DNA of 64,000 bases from Hyphomicrobiales bacterium (lineage in GTDB: Bacteria > Pseudomonadota > Alphaproteobacteria > Rhizobiales > Xanthobacteraceae): the NCBI GenBank assembly GCA_021323775.1, contig JAJPKK010000326.1:1-64000 (forward strand), in the 5' to 3' direction. The position numbers and the translations under genes are program-made. Within the stretch, counting starts at the first letter, position 1, and every line of letters begins with the position of its first letter. The notes beneath the pieces are model-generated. The model saw nothing but the letters and a program-made list of their open reading frames with translations, did no database searches and had not been told where the DNA came from. Shown one piece after another: positions 38,943-54,201 of the stretch.

Positions 38943-39215
38943 GCCGTCACGACACCATCAAGTTTGTCGCCCCGCTGACCCGACGCGGTTTTGCCTTGTC
39001 TGCGCTATTGACCACAATGCCCGCAAACATCAATTTTGCGCCGAGCTAAGCTGGACGTTGAAGGGGCGATGCCATGTCCTGCTCCAGTATTTCGTTGAAG
39101 CGCCGAAACGGCTATTCGTCCAGCCGAAAAGTAAGGATTGGACTGGAGCTCAGTTCGCAAGTTAGGGTCCATCCAGAATGCTTGGAAAGCGCGACTAAAT
39201 GAGAGCGCAAATGCA

Positions 39216-41264
39216 ATGCTTGAACTCGCAGTGACTTTCAATCGGAGTCTCGACCGGCTGACAGCAAGCGAGCAAGCGCTCGCGAAGCAGACCGTGTTCG
39301 ATTACATGACCGATCCGACACGGCCGGGACTTTCGCTTCATCGCATCGACCGCGCCCGCGACAAGCGGTTCTGGACTATCCGCTCCGGCCTCGATCTTCG
39401 GATCGTCGTTTTGAAGGAAGGAGCGCGGTCGCTCTTCTGTTACATCGGCCACCATGACGACGCTTACAAGTGGGCAGAGGGACGGCGCTTTGAAGTGCAC
39501 CCGGTGACCGGGGCTGCGCAGATTGTCGAATTCGAAGAAGTCGTCCGGAAGGAAATCCGGGTTGTCCAGCAAGAGGCCGTACGGCCAGGGCTTTTGGCAG
39601 GCGAGACGCCTGAGTATCTCCTCAGCGTCGGCGTACCTGAAAGTTTCATCGACCTCGTGCGCAGTGTCGATGAAGATGGCCTGCTCGAACTTCTTCCGCG
39701 CTTGCCCGAGGAAGCCGGGGAGGCGCTGCTCAATCTCGCAGCGGGCCATCGGCCGGTTCCTGCTACGGCGCTTGCGAAAATTCCTGCGGTCGATCCTTTT
39801 GATCATCCGGATGCGCAGCGCCGATTCTGGGTGGTCAGCGATCAGGAGCTAGTCGCTCAGGCCCTAGCGAAGCCGTGGGCCGAATGGCTGGTGTTCCTGC
39901 ATCCCTCCCAGCGGGCTGCCGTCGAGCGGAACTTCAACGGTCCCGCACGCGTGTCGGGCACAGCGGGAACGGGGAAGAGCGTTGTTGCCATGCATCGCGC
40001 GGCCCGCCTCGCGCGTGCGCCTGAAGGCGGGCGAGTGTTTCTTACAACGTTTTCGAAGGCTTTAGCGGGAAGGCTCGCGGAGGGTATGGATACGCTGCTG
40101 GGCCGGGCTTCGGATGCGCGTGCCCGTGTGGAGGTCGAGCATTTGCATGCTTATGCCCACGCTCACGCCTCGCGGCTCGAAAGGCCAGGGATTGCAGATG
40201 GTCCAACCATCGACGCCCTGATCAGAGCGGCGCGCGGGAATCTTGACACCGCTTTCGATCATGACTTTCTTCGCGCGGAATGGGACGCCGTCATCGACTT
40301 CTGGGGCGTTTCCTCATTTGAGGACTACCGCAATATTCCGCGTGGCGGCCGGGGCGCCGCATTGCCGGTGGCAGTGCGCCGTCGCTTGTGGGATGTCTTC
40401 AGCGCGGTGCGGCAAGGCCTTGCGTCACGCAACCTTCTTACGTTCGGCGACATCTGCGACGTGCTGCGGCAGCGTATTGAAAGGGATGGAACGCGGCCGT
40501 TCCGTCATGTCATCGTCGATGAAGCCCAGGATTTCGGGCCCCGTGAGATGAAGCTGGCCGCCTCGCTCGCGCCGCCTGGATCCGTGTTCTTTGCCGGCGA
40601 TGTCGGCCAGCGCATCTTCCGGTGGCCGTTTTCCTGGACGGCGGCCGGCATTGATGTCCGTGGCCGCTCCCTGCGCCTCAAAGTGAACTATCGCACGAGC
40701 GCAGAGATTCGCCGCTTTTCGGACCGCTTGCTGAAGGCCCGCATCACCGATGTGGACAACGAGATCGATGACCGCCAGACCTCATCCCCGCTGCATGGAC
40801 CGGATCCGGAAATCAAATCGGCTCCTGATCTCGCTGGCGAGATCGATCTTCTGGTGAACTGGCTCACGGCGCTGCGGGAGCAGGGGACGGCGCCCGGTGA
40901 AATCGCCATTTTTGCCCGAACCAGGAAGGCCCTTGAGCAGAGGGCGTTGCCCGCGCTGAGGCGCTGTGCGCTTTCAGGCGCTTGGCTTTCGCCGGATCAG
41001 AAGGTGGTAACGGGGCACGTCAACCTCGGCACGCTCCACGCAGCGAAAGGACTGGAGTTTCGCGCCGTAGCCGTGGTCGCGTGCGACGATTCGCAGCTTC
41101 CGCTGCGCGTCGCCATGGGCATGGCGAGAGATCAGGATGCCAAGCAGATCGTGGAGCAGCGTGAATTGAGCCTTCTCTATGTCGGCTGTACGCGGGCCCG
41201 CGAGCGCTTGCTCGTGACCTGGTCGGGGCAGCCCTCCCGGTTTCTGGAGAGCAAGTCGGCCTGA
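39216..41264 (+). CDS. Fusion: RelE/ParE-like N-terminal domain plus UvrD/Rep-like SF1 helicase
   Basis: N-term LAVTFNRSLDRLTASEQ...LHRIDRARDKRFWTIRSGLDLRIVVLKE...CYIGHHDDAYKWAEGR; helicase SGTAGTGKSVVAMHRAARL (Walker A), VIVDEAQDF (Walker B), LLYVGCTRARERL (motif VI). Confidence 0.85.
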   Translation: MLELAVTFNRSLDRLTASEQALAKQTVFDYMTDPTRPGLSLHRIDRARDKRFWTIRSGLDLRIVVLKEGARSLFCYIGHHDDAYKWAEGRRFEVHPVTGAAQIVEFEEVVRKEIRVVQQEAVRPGLLAGETPEYLLSVGVPESFIDLVRSVDEDGLLELLPRLPEEAGEALLNLAAGHRPVPATALAKIPAVDPFDHPDAQRRFWVVSDQELVAQALAKPWAEWLVFLHPSQRAAVERNFNGPARVSGTAGTGKSVVAMHRAARLARAPEGGRVFLTTFSKALAGRLAEGMDTLLGRASDARARVEVEHLHAYAHAHASRLERPGIADGPTIDALIRAARGNLDTAFDHDFLRAEWDAVIDFWGVSSFEDYRNIPRGGRGAALPVAVRRRLWDVFSAVRQGLASRNLLTFGDICDVLRQRIERDGTRPFRHVIVDEAQDFGPREMKLAASLAPPGSVFFAGDVGQRIFRWPFSWTAAGIDVRGRSLRLKVNYRTSAEIRRFSDRLLKARITDVDNEIDDRQTSSPLHGPDPEIKSAPDLAGEIDLLVNWLTALREQGTAPGEIAIFARTRKALEQRALPALRRCALSGAWLSPDQKVVTGHVNLGTLHAAKGLEFRAVAVVACDDSQLPLRVAMGMARDQDAKQIVEQRELSLLYVGCTRARERLLVTWSGQPSRFLESKSA

Positions 41265-41285: not shown

Positions 41286-44261
41286 TTACGTCTTCACTGT
41301 GCCGCTGAAGAGCCTGTCGATATCTCCCTCGCCGGTTGGCGGCGCCAGCATATGGCGGGACAGTTGGCGTTTGCTTTCGATCAGCCGGTCGAGCTGTTCA
41401 TCGAACGAGTGGTCCGGCAAACCCGGGTGTACCGCGAGAGGAATATGGATCGTGACCGGTTTGGTCTGGCCGATCCGGTAGGCGCGGTCGTTGCATTGAT
41501 CCTCAATCGCGGGGTTCCACCACCGGCTCAGATGAATGACATGGTTGGCGGCGACAATGTTGAGGCCGACGCCGGCTGCCTTCGGCGACAGCAGAAGGAC
41601 GCCGAACCCGTCCCCGGATCGCGCAAATGCATCCACGATCGCCAGACGTCTTTCACCGGGTGTACCGCCATTGATCACGGCCGGCTTGCGGTCAAGATCA
41701 AACATCGCTGCAATTCCGTCCGCGACGGCGTCCTGCATCGCCAGATGCTCGATAAAAATGAGCGCCTTTTCTCCACGCTTCTCGATGTCGCGGAGGATCT
41801 CGATCGTCTTCGCAAGCCGGGCCGACCGGCGCGCAAACGCTTCGAACCGCGCGCCATCGACGCCGGCTATTTCGGCCGGGTCACGTGGATGAAGTGAAAT
41901 CCCCCGCATCGCGTGAAGGACGCGGAGCATATGACCGCGCGTTCTCTCGCCGCCGTTGCAAGCCTCCACGATCAATTCGCGATAGACCTGCGCTTGCTCA
42001 TCTGGCATCGGCGTGGGGTATCTTTTTTCTTCCTTCTTTGGCAACGCGTCCAGGACATCGGCCTTCATTCGCCGCTTCATCACCGGCGGCGCCTTATCCG
42101 CCGGATCGTCAAGCATCGCCTTCAGCTTCTTGAGTTCTTCCGGCGCCTCTGGGCGGAAAGTCCTGGAAAACGTTTTGAGATCGCCGAGGTAGCCGGGGGC
42201 GATCCGATCGAATATGCACCAGAGATCTTCCATTCTGTTTTCAATGGGCGTTCCCGTCAGGCCGAGAACGAAATCGGCATTCAACGCCCTGGCGGCTTTC
42301 GTATTCAGCGTATCCGGAGCTTTCACTTTCTGCATTTCGTCGAAGATCACGACGGGGTAATGGATGCGCGCAAACGCCTGTTCGTGGTCGGTCAAGGTTT
42401 CATAGGTTGTCAGGATCCAATCGGCTTGACGCATCCGGGTGACGTCAAGGGTTTCCCCCGGGTCCGCACGGCGGGAGGCGTCAAGCTTGAGCCTGGCCAG
42501 CGCTTTGCCATAGGCGTCCACCCTCTCACCAAGTCCCTCGGATGATAGGCGCTCTGTGCATTCCTTTTCCCAGTTCTTGAGGAGAGCCGTAGGGGCTACC
42601 ACGAGCAGCGGCTTGCTCTCGACAGAGCCGGATCCACGTTTGCGCGCCTCGGCGGCATTGCTTTTGATCCAAGCCAGAAAGACAAGCGCCTGAAGTGTCT
42701 TGCCCAAACCCATGTCGTCCGCGAGCAGCACCCCGGGCCAGCCGGCTTTCCAGGCATCCGTCAGCCAGCAGAAGCCCTCCACCTGATGCCGCTTCAGGAT
42801 CGTAGACCCGAGACAGTGGATCGGCGGCTTTGGAGCGATAAATGTCGGCCGCTGCTTCAAAGTGAAGGTGTAATCGACGCCGTCGAAATTCGTCTTCTTG
42901 ATTAGTAAGACGAGTCGCGCGCCTGGGGTCTTTGGTTCCGTGCCAGCGTCGTCCCCGTTGGGCGGAACAACGGGGTCGGGGCCACACTTAGCCGTCCGTT
43001 CGCGCTCCGTTACAAGAAGCTGAGGGACGGCATCGATCGGGATCGCAACGCCCCTGACGACCACGTGGGTGTCGCCGTTTGCTTCAGCCCGCTCGATATC
43101 GCGTTCGATCTGATCAAGCTCGTCGGGCGTAAACGGCTCCGTCTGGACGGGCTCGCCGCCCGCGATCCACCCTGTCTCCGGCAGCCATTGATTGGGGATT
43201 CGCGTCAGCCACGGCAAACGCGGCCGTTCCCAAAGTCCGAGGCCTTCGACGCGGTCGGAATAATTCTTCGTCTCAATGAACAGCGATGCGGAAGGCGCAT
43301 CGCCGGCTTCGGGATTGAGCGCCTCGGCAAGAGCCGCCTTCGGGTTGCGCAAGAACGCCCGCCGCTCCTCCACAGACGCGCGTCGCTTCGCCTTTACGAC
43401 GTCCAGCGCGCGCTTGAGTGCCGGGTCGATCAGGACGTAGCGGTTTTTTCCGATAACGTAGGCGTCGCGGGTAGGCCCGTCCTTTATGGCTTGCTCCAAA
43501 AAACTGCGATGATCATCGGCGGACAGCAGCGTGTCGGACGCGCCTTCGGATCGGCTTGCGTTCTCGTCATCGACCGGTGCGTCATCTTCGAGCGAGGGTG
43601 CGCGGTCGCGGCTCATCAGGATCGGCGTGAAATCCACGCCATTTGGACTTTCGTGGACGTCGAGCGCAAAGGCGCCGGCCTGGAAAATCGTGAATGTCTC
43701 AAGGTAGCCGTCGCACCGGATGTCATGCCCCGTTGTGTCTCTCAGGGCCGTCTGGACCGGCATCCAGCGGGCGATCCTTTCATCGTGCGGCCCTCCAATC
43801 GTCCGGTTATAGTCCTCGGCTGCTTGCACGATCCGCAACAGCGGTGCTGAGAGGCGCCCGAACTGCGCGCCCCACGACAGCTTTAGACCGACCCGCTCAG
43901 GGCGTACCTCCTCTCCGGTCCTCTCGGTCCAGCGCAGGCGAAGGCGGCCATCCGGCTTTTCGACGCGACTGTCGAGGGCGACGGTCAGGCCGAGCGGAAC
44001 GAGCGGCGGCAGTCCGATGCAGTCGGCCACTTCGGGCGCAAGAGCCGCGGCGGTTTCGGAGGAGAGGTGCACATCGAAATCGCTCGCTGTCGCGATGCCC
44101 CGCTCTACGAGGTCCTCCAACGCGCGAACAGCGGGGCGCAGCTTCGGCGCTCGCGCCCAGGCTCGGCGCTCAAGCGGCGTTTCCCTGCCGAACAAGGATT
44201 TCTCGGAGACGGTGACGCGGACTCCGTCTCCAGCGATCTCACTGCGAAAGCGCGGGGCCAT
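41286..44261 (-). CDS. zorD: Zorya ZorD, SNF2-type helicase
   Basis: 991 aa; LLADDMGLGKTLQALVFLAW, VVIFDEMQKVK, GLTGTPIENRMEDLW, SPKAAGVGLNIVAANHVIHLSRWWNPAIEDQCNDRAYRIGQ; last gene of zorABCD. Confidence 0.9.
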   Translation of the reverse strand: MAPRFRSEIAGDGVRVTVSEKSLFGRETPLERRAWARAPKLRPAVRALEDLVERGIATASDFDVHLSSETAAALAPEVADCIGLPPLVPLGLTVALDSRVEKPDGRLRLRWTERTGEEVRPERVGLKLSWGAQFGRLSAPLLRIVQAAEDYNRTIGGPHDERIARWMPVQTALRDTTGHDIRCDGYLETFTIFQAGAFALDVHESPNGVDFTPILMSRDRAPSLEDDAPVDDENASRSEGASDTLLSADDHRSFLEQAIKDGPTRDAYVIGKNRYVLIDPALKRALDVVKAKRRASVEERRAFLRNPKAALAEALNPEAGDAPSASLFIETKNYSDRVEGLGLWERPRLPWLTRIPNQWLPETGWIAGGEPVQTEPFTPDELDQIERDIERAEANGDTHVVVRGVAIPIDAVPQLLVTERERTAKCGPDPVVPPNGDDAGTEPKTPGARLVLLIKKTNFDGVDYTFTLKQRPTFIAPKPPIHCLGSTILKRHQVEGFCWLTDAWKAGWPGVLLADDMGLGKTLQALVFLAWIKSNAAEARKRGSGSVESKPLLVVAPTALLKNWEKECTERLSSEGLGERVDAYGKALARLKLDASRRADPGETLDVTRMRQADWILTTYETLTDHEQAFARIHYPVVIFDEMQKVKAPDTLNTKAARALNADFVLGLTGTPIENRMEDLWCIFDRIAPGYLGDLKTFSRTFRPEAPEELKKLKAMLDDPADKAPPVMKRRMKADVLDALPKKEEKRYPTPMPDEQAQVYRELIVEACNGGERTRGHMLRVLHAMRGISLHPRDPAEIAGVDGARFEAFARRSARLAKTIEILRDIEKRGEKALIFIEHLAMQDAVADGIAAMFDLDRKPAVINGGTPGERRLAIVDAFARSGDGFGVLLLSPKAAGVGLNIVAANHVIHLSRWWNPAIEDQCNDRAYRIGQTKPVTIHIPLAVHPGLPDHSFDEQLDRLIESKRQLSRHMLAPPTGEGDIDRLFSGTVKT

Positions 44262-44262
44262 G

Positions 44263-45654
44263 TCAGGGAGCCCGGTAGTCCGACGGCTGGACGCGGACGC
44301 CGATCAGTTGGTAGAGCCGCTCGGCGACACGATTCTGCCAAATGTAGGTGTCCGCGCCTACGTGGGTAAACATGTCGTTCTTGTTTAGATTGGGTTCGGT
44401 ACGGTCGTTCTTCGGCAACGGACGCATGATCTCATCAGTCGTGTAGTAAGGGGCGTTGAGTTTCGGGCAATTCCGGTCTGATTTCTTCCAGATGTTACAA
44501 CGTCCATTGTGGCTCCAATCGGCGACGATGCATTCGCCGAAGTCCAGCAACAGGACGGCATGTCCAGGCTCAATTTGTCTTCTGCCGCCGGATCTAAACC
44601 TTCCGAAGGGGACATCCTTTCCGAACGCTCGCCTCGCCTCCACGGCTCCTTCATCGCCGAAGATGACCCAGGCGTTCTGCAGCAGCTCTTTCTCATGGTA
44701 GGCCTGCCAGAAAGCCCGCCGGTATTTCCACATGTGGTCGGGCGCGATTTTGTCCACCACGTCCAAAAACTGCCGCAGGGATTGCTCGATTAACCAGCGC
44801 CGCAAGATATCCACGACGTCGTCCAGTCCGATCCATTCGCCTCCGGATATGCGCGGATCCCCGAACCGGGCGATCAGGAAATTCAATATCTCGTTGCGCT
44901 CTGCCAGAGCGGGAATTCGTTCCCCGAACGGCAGCACGACGGCGCGGGCCAGCTGCCCCTTGCAACGTTTGAAGATCAGACGTTCCTCATCGAGCGACCA
45001 TCGTCTGACGGTGTCGATGCGTTCCACCGCGGTGTGCACCGGCGTGCTGCGCAGGATTTCAAGGCCCTTGTCGTGGACCGCTTCCGCGAAGCCAGCCTCC
45101 AGGAGCATCCCCCTGACCCCCGCCGGCTTCAAAAGGCCTTGGATGTTCGTCTGTTCTTTCAGCGCGAGGCGGGCAATCCGCCCGACCGCCTCGGCGCCGG
45201 TGAAGAGGGCGTATCTGGCCTGCAGTTTATCCCATGGCTCGCCGGCAGCGGACGCAAAGTCGCGCAGCACGCCGCTGATCTGTGCAAGCTTCGGGCGGTC
45301 AATTGCGAAGTCGGTGAGATATGCCGAGGCAAGCTGGCGGTAGGGACGCCTCTTCTTGTTACGGACCATGTCGACGACGCGATTGAGCATTGCGTCCAGG
45401 GCCCTATCGTCTTCAGCGACGGCGGGTTTGGTTGTCCACAGGCACCAGGCGATCCTGTTCCAGTCCCGCAAGCTCGGCTGCGTTCCGCGCCTGATGCACG
45501 CGATGAAGTTTCCGGCGACGCTGTCAAGATCCACATGCGGTCTTTCAATCGGAGCGACGGGAGGCAGGCTGCGGGCGAGCCGCGCCGTCGTCCCCTGTTC
45601 CGGCATCGGCCGGGCGCGCAAACTCAATCGCTCGACTGCGGTCAGAAAGCCCAT
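44263..45654 (-). CDS. zorC: Zorya ZorC (EH_Signature-type protein)
   Basis: 463 aa between zorB and zorD; C-terminal EARRAFGKDVPFGRFRSGG...HAVLLLDFGECIVADWSHNGRCNIW. Confidence 0.87.
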   Translation of the reverse strand: MGFLTAVERLSLRARPMPEQGTTARLARSLPPVAPIERPHVDLDSVAGNFIACIRRGTQPSLRDWNRIAWCLWTTKPAVAEDDRALDAMLNRVVDMVRNKKRRPYRQLASAYLTDFAIDRPKLAQISGVLRDFASAAGEPWDKLQARYALFTGAEAVGRIARLALKEQTNIQGLLKPAGVRGMLLEAGFAEAVHDKGLEILRSTPVHTAVERIDTVRRWSLDEERLIFKRCKGQLARAVVLPFGERIPALAERNEILNFLIARFGDPRISGGEWIGLDDVVDILRRWLIEQSLRQFLDVVDKIAPDHMWKYRRAFWQAYHEKELLQNAWVIFGDEGAVEARRAFGKDVPFGRFRSGGRRQIEPGHAVLLLDFGECIVADWSHNGRCNIWKKSDRNCPKLNAPYYTTDEIMRPLPKNDRTEPNLNKNDMFTHVGADTYIWQNRVAERLYQLIGVRVQPSDYRAP

Positions 45655-45655
45655 C

Positions 45656-46525
45656 TCAGGGAGTTTCCTTTAATTTCTCGATCTCTATTCTCATCTGCTG
45701 GAGGAGTCTCTGCATCTCCTCAAGATCGGCAGTCGGGTCCGTGTCCATGACGAATCGCAGATCAATCCTTCGATTCTTCTGCCGGGCGTCCGGAGTGTTT
45801 CCCGTATCAAGTGGACGCGTAGATGAATAACCGGAGATCGACAGGATCTCCTGATCGCTGCGGTTGTGAAGGCGGCGCAATAAGGGAGCTCTGAACGTAA
45901 GCTCACGATATGTGTTTGCCGCTCGTTGAACTGATAATACCCAGTTCTGGTCATCCGGCCCAATTGTGTCCGTATGCCCTTCGATGAAGACGGTTTCGAT
46001 CGATGCATTTGTTTGGTTCTGACAGCCCGTATCCAGCGAGGAAGCCTTTGTGCAAGACACGTACGCCGGCAGCACGCTCGCCAAAACAGGAGCAATTTTC
46101 TTTACTTTTTCCCTCGCGTCATTGTTGAGGTTCGCATTGCCGAAGTCAAATTTGATTGTGTCTTCAGTTAAACGAAGCACGCCGTTTAACTCATCCACTT
46201 TTACTTTCACTCCGACAGCGTCGAGCTGGTCATGCAGCTCGTAGAGCAGTTTCTGTCGCAGCCGCGTGGCTTGTCGCAGTTCGTCAAGGCGTTCGCTGAT
46301 ACGCTTCTCGATATCCGCCAGCTTTCGTTCAATGACGTTGGCATGCGCAATCTTGGTGTCTTGCGTCGCTTTCGTAGCGTCTGTCTGCTGCCGGAACAGG
46401 AAAGCGAAGCTCATCAACATGATGATGAAGATGAAAAGCATACCCACCATCATGTCGGTCATCGAGACGAAATAGTTCTCGCCCTCGCCGCGATCGTAGG
46501 CATCGGCGCTCTCTGCAATCGCCAT
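45656..46525 (-). CDS. zorB: Zorya ZorB, MotB/OmpA-like stator protein
   Basis: N-terminal TM FVSMTDMMVGMLFIFIIMLMSFAFLF; OmpA-like EGHTDTIG...LSVQRAANTY...NRRIDLRF. Confidence 0.93.
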   Translation of the reverse strand: MAIAESADAYDRGEGENYFVSMTDMMVGMLFIFIIMLMSFAFLFRQQTDATKATQDTKIAHANVIERKLADIEKRISERLDELRQATRLRQKLLYELHDQLDAVGVKVKVDELNGVLRLTEDTIKFDFGNANLNNDAREKVKKIAPVLASVLPAYVSCTKASSLDTGCQNQTNASIETVFIEGHTDTIGPDDQNWVLSVQRAANTYRELTFRAPLLRRLHNRSDQEILSISGYSSTRPLDTGNTPDARQKNRRIDLRFVMDTDPTADLEEMQRLLQQMRIEIEKLKETP

Positions 46526-46541
46526 TGTCGCGTGCTCCTAC

Positions 46542-48623
46542 TCAGCGGGGGCGCGGGGATGCGCCGTTTGGAGACCTTCGTGGCGAACCGCCGTCTGGAG
46601 GAAACTGTCCGAGAACCTGGGTCAGGTTGTCCAAGGTCTCGTCAAGACCACTCATGGTATTGCTGATCTTGCTCAAGAACGTCCCGGTGTGTTCATCGAT
46701 CTTGATGACAAACGCTCGCATCGCCTCCTGATGGTTCGAAACCTCCTTCTGGAAACCGTCAACCGCCCTTTCGAGGGCCTCGTCGACGCGATTGAACCGG
46801 GCTTCGTAATTGGTCCACACGCGCCCGATCTGTTCCAGGTGCGCGTCAAGGCGCTCGGCGATGCCGCTGGCCTTCTGTTGGGTCGTCGATAGCGCGCCTA
46901 CCGAGCTTTCGATCGATTTCGTCATCTTGTCCGCTGAGTGGGCGACCCGTTCAGACGAAGCGACGATCGGCTGGCTCGCGGCGCGGGCGCTGGCAGCGAC
47001 CTGGCTGAAAGCCTCGGCCGTCTCGCGCGACCGTCTGCTGACTCCGTCGATGTGCTGGGTCTGCGCCCGGAAGGCGCTTTCTACGGATTGGAGCGTCGCT
47101 GCAAGCCGGCCAATATCGGCGCTCAGGTTTTGTGTTACTTCGCCAATGGCATTTCGCATGGCCTCCACTGCGTCGTGCGTCGCCTTCTGCGTCGCCGCAA
47201 CCACCTCGTCAGCCGCGCGCTTGCTCGCGTCGGCGGCCGCCTCTCCGGCTTTCCGCGCGATCGTCCCGCTTTTCTCCATTTGCTCGGCCACGGCGAGCTG
47301 CAGCGCAGCCATACTCTCCGCAAAGGTCGCGTTTTGAGATTCAAGCTTCCCGACCAGCCGCTCCATCGCGCTATCGAGAGTTCCGGCCGCGCCGGTTGCA
47401 GAATGACCAAGCGCGGCGCCCGCGTCGGCGATGATGCGGCCCAGGTTCTCCGCAGCGATGGCTAGCTTGTCCGACACGTCCCGCCCGGAGCCGGCGAGGC
47501 TCTCCCTTATGACTTCGAGGCCCGTCTGCAGGCTGGTCAGCGTCTCGATAACTTTCCCAAGCTCCTGTCCGGCTCCTTGATCGAGCTTGCCTATGAACCG
47601 GTTGATCAAGTCTTCGACGCCGGTTTGCGACGTTTGCGTCAGCGCGTTCATCGTCTCTTTGAGGCTGGTGGAGACGGGGCTGATCGCCTCCGCGACTGCG
47701 GTCTGAAAACGAGGAGCAATCGAGTCGCCGAGGCGCGCAAAGAAGGCCTCGCTGTTGATCTCCTTGAGTTGGTCGCGCTGGGCCGCGAGCAAATCCAGGG
47801 ACTCGGCAGCAATCCGCTGTGGCGGCTGGAACTGCAAGCGATCGCCGAGTGCACGGCCGAAACGGTCGAACGCGCCTTCAATCAGAATCTGGTAGACGCG
47901 GAAAAGCAGCGACAGCGCCAGCGAGGCGCCGAGACCGGCGATCGACGTCGCGAACTTGAAGGTGGCGGCGTTGAGGAGCTCGCCCAGGGACTGTTTCATG
48001 GCGTCTGCGGACGCCGCGTTCGTGCCGCCCGCCGCCTTGTGGAGCGCCAGCACCAGCCCGATGAATGTCAGGAGCAGGCCGAGGCCGACGAAAAAGCCGG
48101 GGATCGAGGGCATCATCTTGAGGCCGAACAGCCGTTCGCGGGCATGCGCGAGATTGATGAAACTCTGGGGACGAACGGTGTTCTGTACGACCTTCTGCTC
48201 GTCGTCGCGAAGGAGGGTCCTTGAGAACTCCCGCCACGCAGGTCCGATGAGGGCGTGCCGGCGGAGCTTCTGGGAGACGCCATCAAACGCCGTGGCGAAA
48301 GACCGGGGATCGTCAGCCGGCCCCAAAGCGTGTCTTGCCACCCATAACGCCGCGTGAATCAACAGGACATGGGCGACCAGAAAGGCAACGGCGAGCGCGA
48401 GGCCAAACTGGACGATCGCGGACGCGAGGGCGAATGCGAATCCCTCTTGCGTGACAAGTTCGAGGAGGTTTTGCCGGTTCGCCTTGAAGACGCCTGATAA
48501 CAGTTGCCAGTCGGAAAAGGGCAACACGGGAGCGAGAGCAAAAAGAGCGCCCCAAACCAGGATCCAGAACAGCGGAAGGCGGACTGCGGCGTTCCACGTC
48601 CAATTGGCAGCAAAGAGGCTCAT
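46542..48623 (-). CDS. zorA: Zorya ZorA, MotA/ExbB-like proton-channel protein with long tail
   Basis: MSLFAANWTW start at 48623; TM region with SIPGFFVGLGLLLTFIGLVLALHKA and FATSIAGLGASLALSLLFR; ~350 aa helical tail. Confidence 0.93.
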   Translation of the reverse strand: MSLFAANWTWNAAVRLPLFWILVWGALFALAPVLPFSDWQLLSGVFKANRQNLLELVTQEGFAFALASAIVQFGLALAVAFLVAHVLLIHAALWVARHALGPADDPRSFATAFDGVSQKLRRHALIGPAWREFSRTLLRDDEQKVVQNTVRPQSFINLAHARERLFGLKMMPSIPGFFVGLGLLLTFIGLVLALHKAAGGTNAASADAMKQSLGELLNAATFKFATSIAGLGASLALSLLFRVYQILIEGAFDRFGRALGDRLQFQPPQRIAAESLDLLAAQRDQLKEINSEAFFARLGDSIAPRFQTAVAEAISPVSTSLKETMNALTQTSQTGVEDLINRFIGKLDQGAGQELGKVIETLTSLQTGLEVIRESLAGSGRDVSDKLAIAAENLGRIIADAGAALGHSATGAAGTLDSAMERLVGKLESQNATFAESMAALQLAVAEQMEKSGTIARKAGEAAADASKRAADEVVAATQKATHDAVEAMRNAIGEVTQNLSADIGRLAATLQSVESAFRAQTQHIDGVSRRSRETAEAFSQVAASARAASQPIVASSERVAHSADKMTKSIESSVGALSTTQQKASGIAERLDAHLEQIGRVWTNYEARFNRVDEALERAVDGFQKEVSNHQEAMRAFVIKIDEHTGTFLSKISNTMSGLDETLDNLTQVLGQFPPDGGSPRRSPNGASPRPR

Positions 48624-49071: not shown

Positions 49072-49575
49072 CTATCCAAATTCGAGAATGACTGGCGATC
49101 CAAGCTGTTCGGCCATGCGGACGCGAACAGCTGCACGCTTGATCTCCGTCGCCTGCTTTTGTGGCGGCTGCCGAAAATCGTGGCGCACGAGCCCCTCGGT
49201 ACGCCATGCGCCGAATCCCTGGTCCAAAAGGATCGTCAGGCAACCTCCGCCCCTCGATGAGCAATGAGCCGCGCCATTGCGCCCGCTTGGAGCCCGGCCA
49301 TGAGGTGAGGGGTGCCGCATTCGGCGCAAACGAGGATTTCAAAGGCCGGGGCGCCGCAGGCGCAATGGTCCCGCTGCGCGAGCCACAGAGCGCCAAATTC
49401 CCAGCCCGCATCCGCAGTCGCCAGCTCTGCATCCCGGTGCGGACAAGCGGGATCGATGCAGGCCCACAATCCGCCTTGCGCACGCAGGAATAGATGGGCG
49501 CGCCAGGGTAGAAGATGCAGGCCTGTCTGCGGACACCGGGCGAGCGCTGCGGCGTCGAGAAGCGTCTGCGCATTT
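49072..49575 (-). pseudogene. Remnant of a Cys-rich superfamily II helicase, frameshifted
   Basis: Minus-strand reading LLINAQTLLDAAALARCPQTGLHLLPWRAHLFLRAQGGLWACIDPACPHRDAELA...HCACGAPAFEILVCAECGTPHL, then a different frame LLDQGFGAWRTEGLVRHDFRQPPQKQATEIKRAAVRVRMAEQLGSPVILEFG. Confidence 0.55.
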
Positions 49576-50339
49576 ATCAGGAGCGCGCACCGCGCAACGC
49601 GGTCTATGACAAGTACGCCAAGCGCTACGTGGCGACCGATATGTTCAAGCCGATTTTTCTCAAGCCTGATCCCGATGGCTATCTCTCGCGGCTGCGGTCC
49701 CTGTCTGAAGGGCTGGCAGAGCGGTCAGAGTCGTGGATTGCGCAGCCGCCGGACGCCGACATTGCGGTGACGCCCCGCCGTGCCGTGGACCCGCCGGTGC
49801 TTAAGGCGGTCCTCACGGCCGTGCGGGAGAAGCGATCGGTCGAAGTGTATTATCAGTCGTTGAGCAAGGAGCGCCCTAAGCCGATCTGGCGGCGGATGAC
49901 GCCGCATGCCTTCGGCTATGACGGCTTCCGCTGGCACGTGCGGGCCTTTTGCCACCTCGATCGGAGCTTCAACGACTTCCTCCTGCCCCGTATCTTGGGG
50001 GCCCGGGATATGGGTGATTCCGGCCCGGGGGCGGAGCATGATGTGCTGTGGCAGGAAACGTTTGACGTGGAGATTGGCCCGCACCCGGAGCTGACGGAAA
50101 GCCAGAAGGCCGTCGTTGCCAAGGATTACGGCATGGTGGGCGGCCGGGCGGTCCTCAGGGTTCGCTACGCGATGCTGTTCTATGTGCTTAAGCGCCTCGG
50201 TCTGCTGGGCAACGCGGTGAAGCAGAATCCACGCACGCAGCACATCGTGGCGTTGAACGCGAAGGAGACAGCACGGGCATTGAAACGCGCGGAAACGGAG
50301 TCGCAACAGCCTTTGCCGTCAGCACGAAGAGTCTCCTGA
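49515..50339 (+). CDS. WYL-domain regulator, BrxR/CapW-like, lacking the N-terminal winged helix
   Basis: RLRIYQERAPRNAVYDKYAKRYVATDMFKPIF linker and WYL region VEVYYQSLSKERPKPIWRRMTPHAFGYDGFRWHVRAFCHLDRSFNDFLLPRI; in-frame TAG upstream. Confidence 0.75.
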   Translation: MQACLRTPGERCGVEKRLRIYQERAPRNAVYDKYAKRYVATDMFKPIFLKPDPDGYLSRLRSLSEGLAERSESWIAQPPDADIAVTPRRAVDPPVLKAVLTAVREKRSVEVYYQSLSKERPKPIWRRMTPHAFGYDGFRWHVRAFCHLDRSFNDFLLPRILGARDMGDSGPGAEHDVLWQETFDVEIGPHPELTESQKAVVAKDYGMVGGRAVLRVRYAMLFYVLKRLGLLGNAVKQNPRTQHIVALNAKETARALKRAETESQQPLPSARRVS

Positions 50340-50575
50340 TGGACGCGGCGCCACATCGCCCATCTCTCATGTCGTTCGGCGCTGGCGGGCTGTTCGTCAA
50401 CGAGAGCGTTGCAGTCGCGAAGCTCCATTATGCGGGAGGGGATTGGAATGTGACGGCGGCAAAGGCGGTTGAGGCCCGGGCATTTCCGGTCCGCAAGGCA
50501 AGCTCGGCGCGCCGCACAATCCGCGAGATCGTCAACCGTTTGAAATGGCTTTCGGATGATGAGCTTGAGCCGTCA
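50339..50575 (+). pseudogene. brxA: BrxA (DUF1819) N-terminal fragment of a BREX locus
   Basis: MSFGAGGLFVNESVAVAKLHYAGGDWNVTAAKAVEARAFPVRKASSARRTIREIVNRLKWLSDDELE then loss of similarity; TGATG overlap with the WYL gene. Confidence 0.65.
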
Positions 50576-50748
50576 GGCGCAGACCGAAGCCCTGTCGCCG
50601 GGCCTCGCCCGGATCATCAACGACAAGCGCGATCAGGCCGCAAGCCGCCAGCGCGATCTCACCCTCAAGGTCAAAGCCCTGCTGTCCGAGGCGCGGTTGT
50701 TCGTCCGCGGCGCTGAAATCGAAATCCGCTCCGAGGACGCACAGGCTT
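50556..50748 (+). pseudogene. Probable BrxC internal fragment
   Basis: RQAQTEALSPGLARIINDKRDQAASRQRDLTLKVKALLSEARLFVRGAEIEIRSEDAQ, then runs into the repeat array. Confidence 0.4.
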
Positions 50749-51510
50749 GCCCTCGGCGAACCGCGGCGAGGTCCGGCCGCGTGGGCAAACGCGGAGCGAC
50801 GCCGTGCCAGAGTTTCAACATCCGGGCCGCGTTTGCCCACCCTACGAAGCTGCCCTGAAACACCGTAGGTGGGGCAACGGCGGCCGATGCGCCGCATTCC
50901 GGCACGACGATGCGCCGCCGTTGCCCACGCGGTCCGAGGTTGCCCTCGGCGAACCGCGGCGAGGTCCGGCCGCGTGGGCAAACGCGGAGCGACGCCGTGC
51001 CAGAATTTCAACATCCGGGCCGCGTTTGCCCACCCTACGAAGCTGCCCTGAAACACCGTAGGGTGGGCAACGGCGGCCGATGCGCCGCATTCCGGCACGG
51101 CGATGCGCCGCCGTTGCCCACGCGGTCCGAGGTTGCCCTCGGCGAACCGCGGCGAGGCCCGACAGCGTGGGCAAACGCGGATCGCCGCCGTGCCGGATTT
51201 TCACCGCCTCGGCCGCATTTGCCCACCCTACGAGACACCGTAGGGTGGGCAACGGCGGCCCCGGCGCTTCATCTTGGCGCGGCGCAGGAGCCGCCGTTGC
51301 CCACGCGGTCCGCCCGTGCGCACGGCGAACCGCGGCGAGGCCCGACAGCGTGGGCAAACGCGGATCGACGCCGTGCTGGATTTTCACCGCCTCGGCCGCG
51401 TTTGCCCACCCTACGAGACACCGTAGGGTGGGCAACGGCGGCCCCGGCGCTTCATCGGGGCGCGGCGCAAGACCCGCCGTTGCCCACGCGGTCCGAGGTT
51501 GCACCGTTTC
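50747..51510. repeat. Tandem array of four ~193/193/183/183 bp units, each containing nested inverted repeats
   Basis: GGCGAACCGCGGCGAGG recurs at 50755, 50948, 51141 and 51324; each unit has CGTGGGCAAACGCGG...CCGCGTTTGCCCACCCTACG and GTAGGGTGGGCAACGGCGG...CCGCCGTTGCCCACGCGG. Confidence 0.92.
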
Positions 51511-51513
51511 CTC

Positions 51514-51653
51514 GTCCCGACCTACCTTCGGCAGCACGCCGCGCGCAGCCGCCGTCAAGGAGGGCCGTCGCGCGCCTATCTCCACACGATCAGCGCTTCC
51601 AGGCCATCCTTGACGGCGGCGAGCACGGTGTCATGCTGAAGGTAGGTCGGGAC
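51514..51653. repeat. Imperfect long inverted repeat, arms ~50 bp
   Basis: GTCCCGACCTACCTTCGGCA...GCCGCCGTCAAGGAGGGC versus reverse complement GTCCCGACCTACCTTCAGCA...GCCGCCGTCAAGGATGGC. Confidence 0.75.
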
Positions 51654-51737: not shown

Positions 51738-52742
51738 GTGTTGCATGAAAGGGCGCCGACCGAATTGAACATGCTGCGGCGACAGTCGAGCGGCGAACTC
51801 GCCCTGCCCGGACCGCATCCGGAAGACCGGCTCTCGATCGGCCTCGTGTTGGGCGGCGGCGCCGCCCGCGGGTTTGCGCATATCGGGGTGCTGCGCACTC
51901 TGATGGCCCACGGCATCCGTCCTGACGTGATTGCCGGCACCTCGATCGGCGCCGTCGTCGCAGGACTCTACGCGGCGGGGGAACTGGACGCATTCGAGGA
52001 TTGGTCTCGCCAACTGACCCGCCGGCGCGTGCTCGGCTATCTCGACTTCCGTCTCGGAGGCTCCGGACTGATCGGCGGCGGGCGCCTCGCGGCGAAGCTT
52101 GAGGAGGTCCTCGGCGATACGAGCTTCGCGGATGTGCCGATGCGCCTCGCTGCGATCGCCACCGAGATCGGCACCGGGCATGAAATCTGGCTGACGCGGG
52201 GCCGCTTATCTGAAGCGATGGCTGCCTCTTACGCATTGCCGGGCATCTTCCCGCCCAAGCTGATCGGCGGCCGCTGGCTCATGGACGGCGCGATGGTCAA
52301 TCCGCTGCCGATCTCGGCGGCGCGTGCGCTGGGCGCGCGGCTCGTCATCGCCATCAACCTCAACGCCGACAATTTCGGCCGCGGCACCATCATTCAGGAT
52401 CATGGCCCTGATGCCGCGGATGATGCGCGGCGCGCCCAGCATGAGCTCGCCCGTCAACGGAGCAGCGTCTTTCGCCCCGACCGGTTGCTTCGCCGCCAGT
52501 TCTTCGGAGCGCCTGACGGGCCGGGCCTGTCGACCGTCATGATCGAGGCGTTCCAGGTCATGCAGGACCGCATCACCCGCTCCCGCCTTGCCGGCGATCC
52601 GCCCGATGTCATGATCAGTCCGCGCCTCGCACGCATAAATCTCTTTGACTTCCATCGCGCTGCCGAAATTATCGCGATTGGCGCGGAAGCCGCTGAAAAG
52701 TCGATCGAGACGATCTCCGAGTCGATCGCCGCGTTGAGCTAG
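51738..52742 (+). CDS. Patatin-like phospholipase family protein (RssA-like)
   Basis: LVLGGGAARGFAHIGVL, GTSIGAVVAGLYAAG, DGAMVNPLP. Confidence 0.9.
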   Translation: MLHERAPTELNMLRRQSSGELALPGPHPEDRLSIGLVLGGGAARGFAHIGVLRTLMAHGIRPDVIAGTSIGAVVAGLYAAGELDAFEDWSRQLTRRRVLGYLDFRLGGSGLIGGGRLAAKLEEVLGDTSFADVPMRLAAIATEIGTGHEIWLTRGRLSEAMAASYALPGIFPPKLIGGRWLMDGAMVNPLPISAARALGARLVIAINLNADNFGRGTIIQDHGPDAADDARRAQHELARQRSSVFRPDRLLRRQFFGAPDGPGLSTVMIEAFQVMQDRITRSRLAGDPPDVMISPRLARINLFDFHRAAEIIAIGAEAAEKSIETISESIAALS

Positions 52743-53170
52743 GCCGTGCGAATATATTCGCGCAGCGCGTTCTGCTCGTGCTCAAGCTCGCCCAATCTCG
52801 CCTTGACCACGTCGCCGATCGACACGATGCCGACGAGCCTTCCGTGTTCGATCACCGGAACGTGCCGGAACCTTCCGCTGGTGATGCGCTCCATGATTTC
52901 GGCGATGGTCTCGTTGCGATCGCAGGTGACGACCCGGCGGGTCATGACCTCGGCCACGGGGGCCCCGAGCGCCGCCGGACCTTTCTCGTCGAGCACGCGC
53001 ACAATGTCGCGCTCGGAGATGATGCCGACGATGCGGTGTTCGGCGCCGGTCACGAGCAACGCGCCGATGCGGTGCTGCGCCAGCCTCCGCACCGCCGCCG
53101 CAAGCGTCGCGGTCGGCTCGATCGTGATGACCTGATTGCCTTTATGTCGGAGTATGTCGTTGACTGTCAT
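52739..53170 (-). CDS. Tandem CBS-domain protein
   Basis: ITIEPTATLAAAVRRLAQHRIGALLV...GIISERDIVRVL...VTCDRNETIAEIMERITSGRFRHVPVIEHGRLVGIVSIGDVVKARL. Confidence 0.92.
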   Translation of the reverse strand: MTVNDILRHKGNQVITIEPTATLAAAVRRLAQHRIGALLVTGAEHRIVGIISERDIVRVLDEKGPAALGAPVAEVMTRRVVTCDRNETIAEIMERITSGRFRHVPVIEHGRLVGIVSIGDVVKARLGELEHEQNALREYIRTA

Positions 53171-53457
53171 GGACAGCCTCCATGCTGCTCTGCGCGCTCC
53201 CGCGCACGTTTTGACGCTGAACGACGAACTCCACGACCCCGAAACATCTTCGGCCCGTCGGCGCGAGCACGCAACAATGAAGATCGCGGCGCGTCATGCG
53301 ATGCAACGACGCGGCGCCGGGGGCGCGTCAAAACGGCCGCGTCGCCGTGTGGCGGATTACGCTGACGCTGATCCGCCCTGCGCGGCTGCGTCGGTGCTGG
53401 ATCGGATAGAGCCGCGGGGCGGGTTAGCAAGAGCCGGGACGGGCAGAGGGCGGCGCG

Positions 53458-54201
53458 CTAGTCCTGCGCGGCTCCGGCCGGCTGCGACGGAACCGGATCG
53501 AAAAGCCGGAACAGCAGCAGGCCGGCGACGAATCCGCCGATATGGGCCTGCCAGGCGATGCTCTGCTCGCCGCCCGGCACCCCGACGGAACCGACGCCGA
53601 ACAGGAGGTTCAGCCCGAACCAGGCCAGCAGGAAAATCAAGATGCGCGGATCGCGCAACGCGGCCGACAGCGGCGCCGCCGGCACCAGATAAGCCGCCGG
53701 ATCCTCGCTGCGGAACATCGCGAGCGGTCCGCCGCGCTGAAATGCAAACCGGATTGCGCCTGCCATGAAGCCGGAAACCGCCGCGGATGCCCCTATCATT
53801 GGCATCAACTCCCCCCAATGGGTGACAAGATGCGCAAGCGCGCCGGCCGCAGCCGTCGCCACAAAAAAGCCGATGACGCGCAAGGTTCCGAACCGTCGCG
53901 CTACAGCGCTGCCGAACGGCAGGAACCAGACGGAATTCATGCCGAGATGCAGGGTGTCGCCGTGAATGAACGCATAGGTCACGAAGGTCCAGATGTCCGC
54001 GCCTGTTCCGCCGGGAAAATTCCCCACCAGCCGCAGCGAGCTGTCGTAACGGGCCGGAACGAACGCGAAGTAGTACAGGAACGTAATGTCCTCCTCGCTG
54101 GACAGCAAAAACTCCTCGCCCGCCAGTACGAGGACGCATATCCCGATGATCGCCAGCACGATGGCCGGGACATTGAAGATCGGCTCAGAGGTTCTGCTCA
54201 C
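53458..54201 (-). CDS. Rhomboid family intramembrane serine protease
   Basis: HLGMNSVWFLPFG, GASAAVSGFMAGAIRF (catalytic Ser), HIGGFVAGLLLF (catalytic His). Confidence 0.92.
   Translation of the reverse strand: MSRTSEPIFNVPAIVLAIIGICVLVLAGEEFLLSSEEDITFLYYFAFVPARYDSSLRLVGNFPGGTGADIWTFVTYAFIHGDTLHLGMNSVWFLPFGSAVARRFGTLRVIGFFVATAAAGALAHLVTHWGELMPMIGASAAVSGFMAGAIRFAFQRGGPLAMFRSEDPAAYLVPAAPLSAALRDPRILIFLLAWFGLNLLFGVGSVGVPGGEQSIAWQAHIGGFVAGLLLFRLFDPVPSQPAGAAQD

Follow-up and report, generated by a model that had tools for sequence, protein, structure and literature searches.

Does the short run of BREX-like sequence on the plus strand of a Hyphomicrobiales genome belong to a defence system, to the regulation of a neighbouring one, or to an operon of which most has been lost? 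Defence systems are gained and lost quickly, and in the window analyzed here (the first 64,000 nucleotides of contig JAJPKK010000326.1, assembly GCA_021323775.1) an earlier note had described a collapsed type I BREX locus behind a WYL regulator. The stretch from 49560 to 50747 is very probably a type I BREX relic with three breaks, each of which can be placed by comparison with intact loci.

Three BREX pieces, all matching far above chance, lie on the plus strand of this stretch in the order brxR, brxA, brxC. The first is a brxR-like gene without its 5′ end (49560-50339), which shows 74-75% amino acid identity over 247 residues to the closest intact BrxR in tblastn and a Pfam WYL match (E = 3.9e-10) in the ORF at 49515-50339. 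Its similarity to BrxR covers the WYL domain and the C-terminal part and is collinear with BREX-linked relatives, as is expected of a BrxR family member. In a phylogenetic tree it falls in a set of 12 (support 98/88) with nine BREX-linked rows, locus L014 and one other. The earlier note had read the succession of a BrxR-like WYL gene, a TGATG overlap and a BrxA N-terminus as the order of type I BREX, and intact loci such as L010 are indeed built alike, with the same overlap of brxR stop and brxA start as is found at 50337-50341 in the window. The brxA piece (50339-50566, plus strand) comprises codons 1-76 of ~205 and is 61-72% identical in amino acid sequence to the intact BrxA proteins from the closest loci (Pfam BrxA PF08849, E = 2.8e-10, profile positions 5-71 of 184; PADLOC BrxA, E = 8e-19). 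BrxA similarity was said to stop there and another frame to continue with ~60 residues of BrxC, which agrees with the internal brxC fragment at 50571-50747 (plus strand; codons ~659-717 of 1181; 58-63% amino acid identity to intact BrxC; Pfam BREX_BrxC_4th PF25796, E = 1.1e-11; PADLOC BrxC positions 658-716 of 1172). Each fragment has a profile match to the family that had been proposed for it (Pfam for all three, PADLOC for BrxA and BrxC). The frame matching the fourth domain of BrxC opens at 50556 and is not that of brxA, which means that the two are not read as a fusion protein. In total, the window retains ~1.2 kb of a roughly 13.9-kb BREX operon.

Scanning bacterial genomes with the window regulator gave 80 loci, of which eight intact type I BREX loci (L010-L013, L015, L017, L054, and L065) form the mapping set; the relatives searched include no genome of the same genus, and the junctions are compared with more distant loci. 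In all eight, BrxA follows BrxR with the overlap seen in the window, and ~4 kb separates the start of the BrxR match from the brxC stretch further downstream. The locus of NZ_CP023066 (Sinorhizobium sp. CCBAU 05631 plasmid pSS05631d), annotated as complete, reads WYL protein-DUF1819-DUF1788-brxC-pglX-pglZ-brxL, and the window pieces are 74.5% (BrxR), 72.4% (BrxA), and 62.7% (BrxC) identical to it. In many relatives (L010-L017, with L014 and L016 among them, and L023), the BrxR-type regulator is divergent from the same large gene pair of nuclease/helicase type (~884 and 1131 aa), and the genes downstream of the regulator are BREX in most and Zorya in L014; L016 and L023 carry others. Such an arrangement looks like a shared module of regulator and large gene pair with exchangeable cargo behind it.

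Nucleotide alignment with the eight mapping loci places the brxA/brxC deletion junction at 50567-50570. The earlier note had proposed a deletion of the remainder of brxA, brxB as a whole and the start of brxC, and the alignment bears this out, with the first ~660 codons of brxC among the lost sequence. Because the missing interval measures 2,985-2,989 bp against every one of the eight relatives, a single collinear deletion of that size explains the junction. The pieces that are kept thus stand in the order and spacing of intact loci, as seen in both the TGATG overlap and the constant size of the deletion. At the other end of the brxC piece, where the rest was said to be lost at the start of a tandem repeat array, homology and array do meet at 50747: the array (4 x 193 bp by TRF; 50747-51502) has as its first base the position at which brxC homology ends. 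The array is rich in inverted repeats, and its core motif has 58 matches genome-wide vs 0 for a reversed control, with partial copies on several other contigs; it is therefore a dispersed repeat and not part of BREX. An inverted repeat of 31 nt with 84% complementarity (51514-51544 and 51623-51653) stands between the array and the downstream patatin gene and may be what is left of a mobile element.

The third break lies within the regulator itself. According to published work, BrxR forms homodimers, has wHTH, WYL and WCX domains, and binds to DNA upstream of its own transcription start (PMC9122589); it functions as a repressor (PMC9122601). The regulator that had been placed from 49515 is indeed a WYL gene of the BrxR family, but it is not whole. 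Alignments to the closest intact BrxR proteins begin at residue 47-49 (tblastn), and homology in the window begins at 49560, so that ~46-48 N-terminal residues, which hold the wHTH in intact BrxR, are missing; no trace of a wHTH is found upstream of 49560 in the window in any frame. The nominal ORF spans 274 codons from its start at 49515, and any longer protein is barred by a TAG in the same frame at 49509. Its first 15 codons (49515-49559, plus strand) are not brxR and run antisense to a druE fragment. Because GVEKRL resembles GVERRL, an internal in-frame deletion within the HTH was considered; it was rejected, since the plus-strand codons at that point are druE in antisense and the resemblance is taken as chance. 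Because the WYL domain is kept without the wHTH, a protein made from this piece would not be expected to bind the operator, and repression by the regulator fragment is unlikely.

The region 5′ of the window brxR has been replaced by sequence of druE, the helicase gene of Druantia type III, whose minus-strand homology runs to 49574. An internal fragment (49266-49574, minus strand; residues ~395-495; PADLOC DruE3, E = 4e-29) aligns with the DruE-like frame of locus L049 over 103 columns at 56% amino acid identity. A C-terminal fragment (49072-49251, with the match at 49105-49251, minus strand; PADLOC DruE3, E = 6.5e-5) carries a LLDQGFGAWR motif that matches DruE residues 1962-1972. Between the two pieces ~1,500 codons have been lost, and similarity does not extend along the length of DruE: model positions 405-497 and 1994-2044 of 2055 alone remain. 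Judged by its sequence, the window druE is a relic and not a working gene. L049 (10001-20231) has, within about 10 kb, a BrxR-type regulator, a BrxA-like gene and a DruE-like frame of 2017 aa.

The genes that a functional type I BREX system requires (brxA, brxB, brxC, pglX, pglZ, and brxL) are not found as a set. When every ORF of intact loci was searched against the window, no piece of brxB, pglX, pglZ, or brxL came up, and the rest of brxC is absent from it. Two weak matches of an upstream ORF of helicase/nuclease type, near 40.4-40.7 kb, lie in a UvrD-like gene and were set aside. Across the genome, a draft of 353 contigs from whose assembly other BREX parts could be missing, the BrxC family matches the window fragment only, and BrxB, PglZ, and BrxL family searches give no match. 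A genome search with a relative's PglX, which had no positive control, also gave no match. The earlier note had asked whether intact brxA, brxB and brxC elsewhere might contradict a BREX origin; the genome searches found no second brxC and no brxB family match, and the other BrxA match in the genome is a separate relic half. This match (contig C6, L004:12426-12734; profile positions 80-180) was rejected as the missing half of the window brxA because its subfamily differs (PADLOC PDLC02445) and BrxA of the intact relatives has no tblastn match there. It corresponds to the C-terminal half of another BrxA subfamily and has a stop inside the matched stretch, and it is read as a second, independent BREX relic in the genome. 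The remnant in the window cannot act as BREX, and no BREX defence comes from it.

The surroundings form the edge of a defence island, in which BREX and Druantia have decayed beside Zorya with full-length frames. The type I Zorya genes zorA-zorB-zorC-zorD (41286-48623, minus strand; PADLOC ZorD E = 0, ZorC 4.5e-151, ZorB 2.7e-86, and ZorA 2.1e-207) are apparently complete, and are a neighbour that lies outside the BREX relic. Convergent with zorD is the UvrD-like helicase gene (39138-41264, plus strand), which matches a NERD+UvrD defence family (PADLOC C3a187). On the right, the genes for a patatin, a CBS-domain protein and a rhomboid-like protein (51738-54201) are conserved core genes whose order is kept in 7/7 of the relatives' loci examined, and the relic therefore lies at the island's edge, against conserved chromosome. 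By synteny only the right edge of the island is fixed, since none of the window genes to the left of 51738 turned up in the loci of the seven relatives.

The homologous stretches of brxR (247 codons), brxA (76), and brxC (59) contain no stops or frameshifts. On the window branch of brxR, the ratio of change at first and second codon positions to change at third positions is 0.08, vs 0.088 for the whole tree. The corresponding ratios are 0.21 vs 0.135 for brxA and 0.35 vs 0.119 for brxC, from few sites and at values like those of some intact relatives; these two pieces are short, and the test is clear for brxR alone. Because the homologous segments are free of stops and frameshifts and the codon-position bias of brxR is that of a gene under constraint, we infer that the losses happened recently compared with the divergence from known relatives.

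These observations show the remnant of a type I BREX operon, brxR-brxA-brxB-brxC-pglX-pglZ-brxL, that was broken at three points. One collinear deletion of ~2,985 bp, joining brxA codon 76 to brxC codon ~659, explains the sequence. Also lost is everything downstream of brxC codon ~717, the point at which the dispersed-repeat array now stands, and a further break took the 5′ part of brxR, including the wHTH, and joined the rest to decayed druE.

The WYL gene might instead have regulated the neighbouring Zorya and never been part of a BREX operon. BrxR-family regulators have been reported beside Zorya among other systems (PMC9122601), and in L014 (Bradyrhizobium sp. CCBAU 51627) a 70%-identical relative lies directly upstream of a complete zorABCD in the same orientation. 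In the window, however, the WYL gene is divergent from zorA, has lost its wHTH, and is separated from zorA by the druE relic, while it overlaps brxA through TGATG exactly as in intact BREX loci and is followed by the brxC piece. Its tree set is mainly BREX-linked, though the Zorya-linked L014 also belongs to it. Since the tree set, the brxA overlap, the brxC piece, the orientation opposite to zorA and the intervening druE relic all favour a BREX origin, a Zorya regulator is very unlikely here. That the apparent deletions were produced by a chimeric join in assembly is highly improbable: the genome is a draft and a repeat array sits at one junction, but the brxA/brxC junction lies away from that repeat with order and strand kept, loss between the two druE pieces is collinear in the same way, and the contig is continuous for 64 kb.

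A BREX relic could still contain a protein with a use of its own, and the truncated WYL protein might still be produced under selection, perhaps sensing a ligand or acting as a dominant-negative partner of another BrxR-family protein. The frame open for 274 codons and the constrained codon-position pattern on its branch would suit such a role, but such a pattern also follows from a recent truncation. With the wHTH and promoter-proximal region lost and the start codon in antisense druE, selection for the fragment is very unlikely. More specifically, an expressed and selected wHTH-less protein that senses a ligand or poisons BrxR-family dimers, so that the collapsed BREX feeds into the control of Zorya, is extremely improbable. 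A type I BREX relic with three mapped breaks remains the preferred account of the locus.

Relics of this kind are already known, and the value of this one is its clean mapping; among the papers listed by a search of the literature on BREX relics, which was not exhaustive, none describes a locus like that of the window. The endpoints of loss can be read where BREX and Druantia decayed side by side and Zorya kept full-length genes, and our understanding of BREX is unchanged by it. An automatic annotation that labels the 274-aa ORF a WYL regulator would assign to the genome a BrxR that it has already lost.

Compared with type I BREX systems that carry BrxR (NZ_CP023066 and L010/L011), the window has the same brxR-brxA order and overlap, with amino acid identities of 74-75%, 68-72%, and 58-63% for the three pieces. 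Unlike these intact operons, it lacks most core genes as well as the wHTH of BrxR, and where they have nuclease/helicase genes beside them, it has druE and Zorya upstream. Druantia type III druE is represented by two collinear minus-strand fragments, which differ from the intact gene in lacking ~1,500 internal codons and the N-terminus. With the BrxR/CapW family of HTH-WYL-WCX regulators (PMC9122589, PMC9122601, and PMC9122588), the window gene shares the WYL domain and the C-terminal half, but not the N-terminal wHTH.
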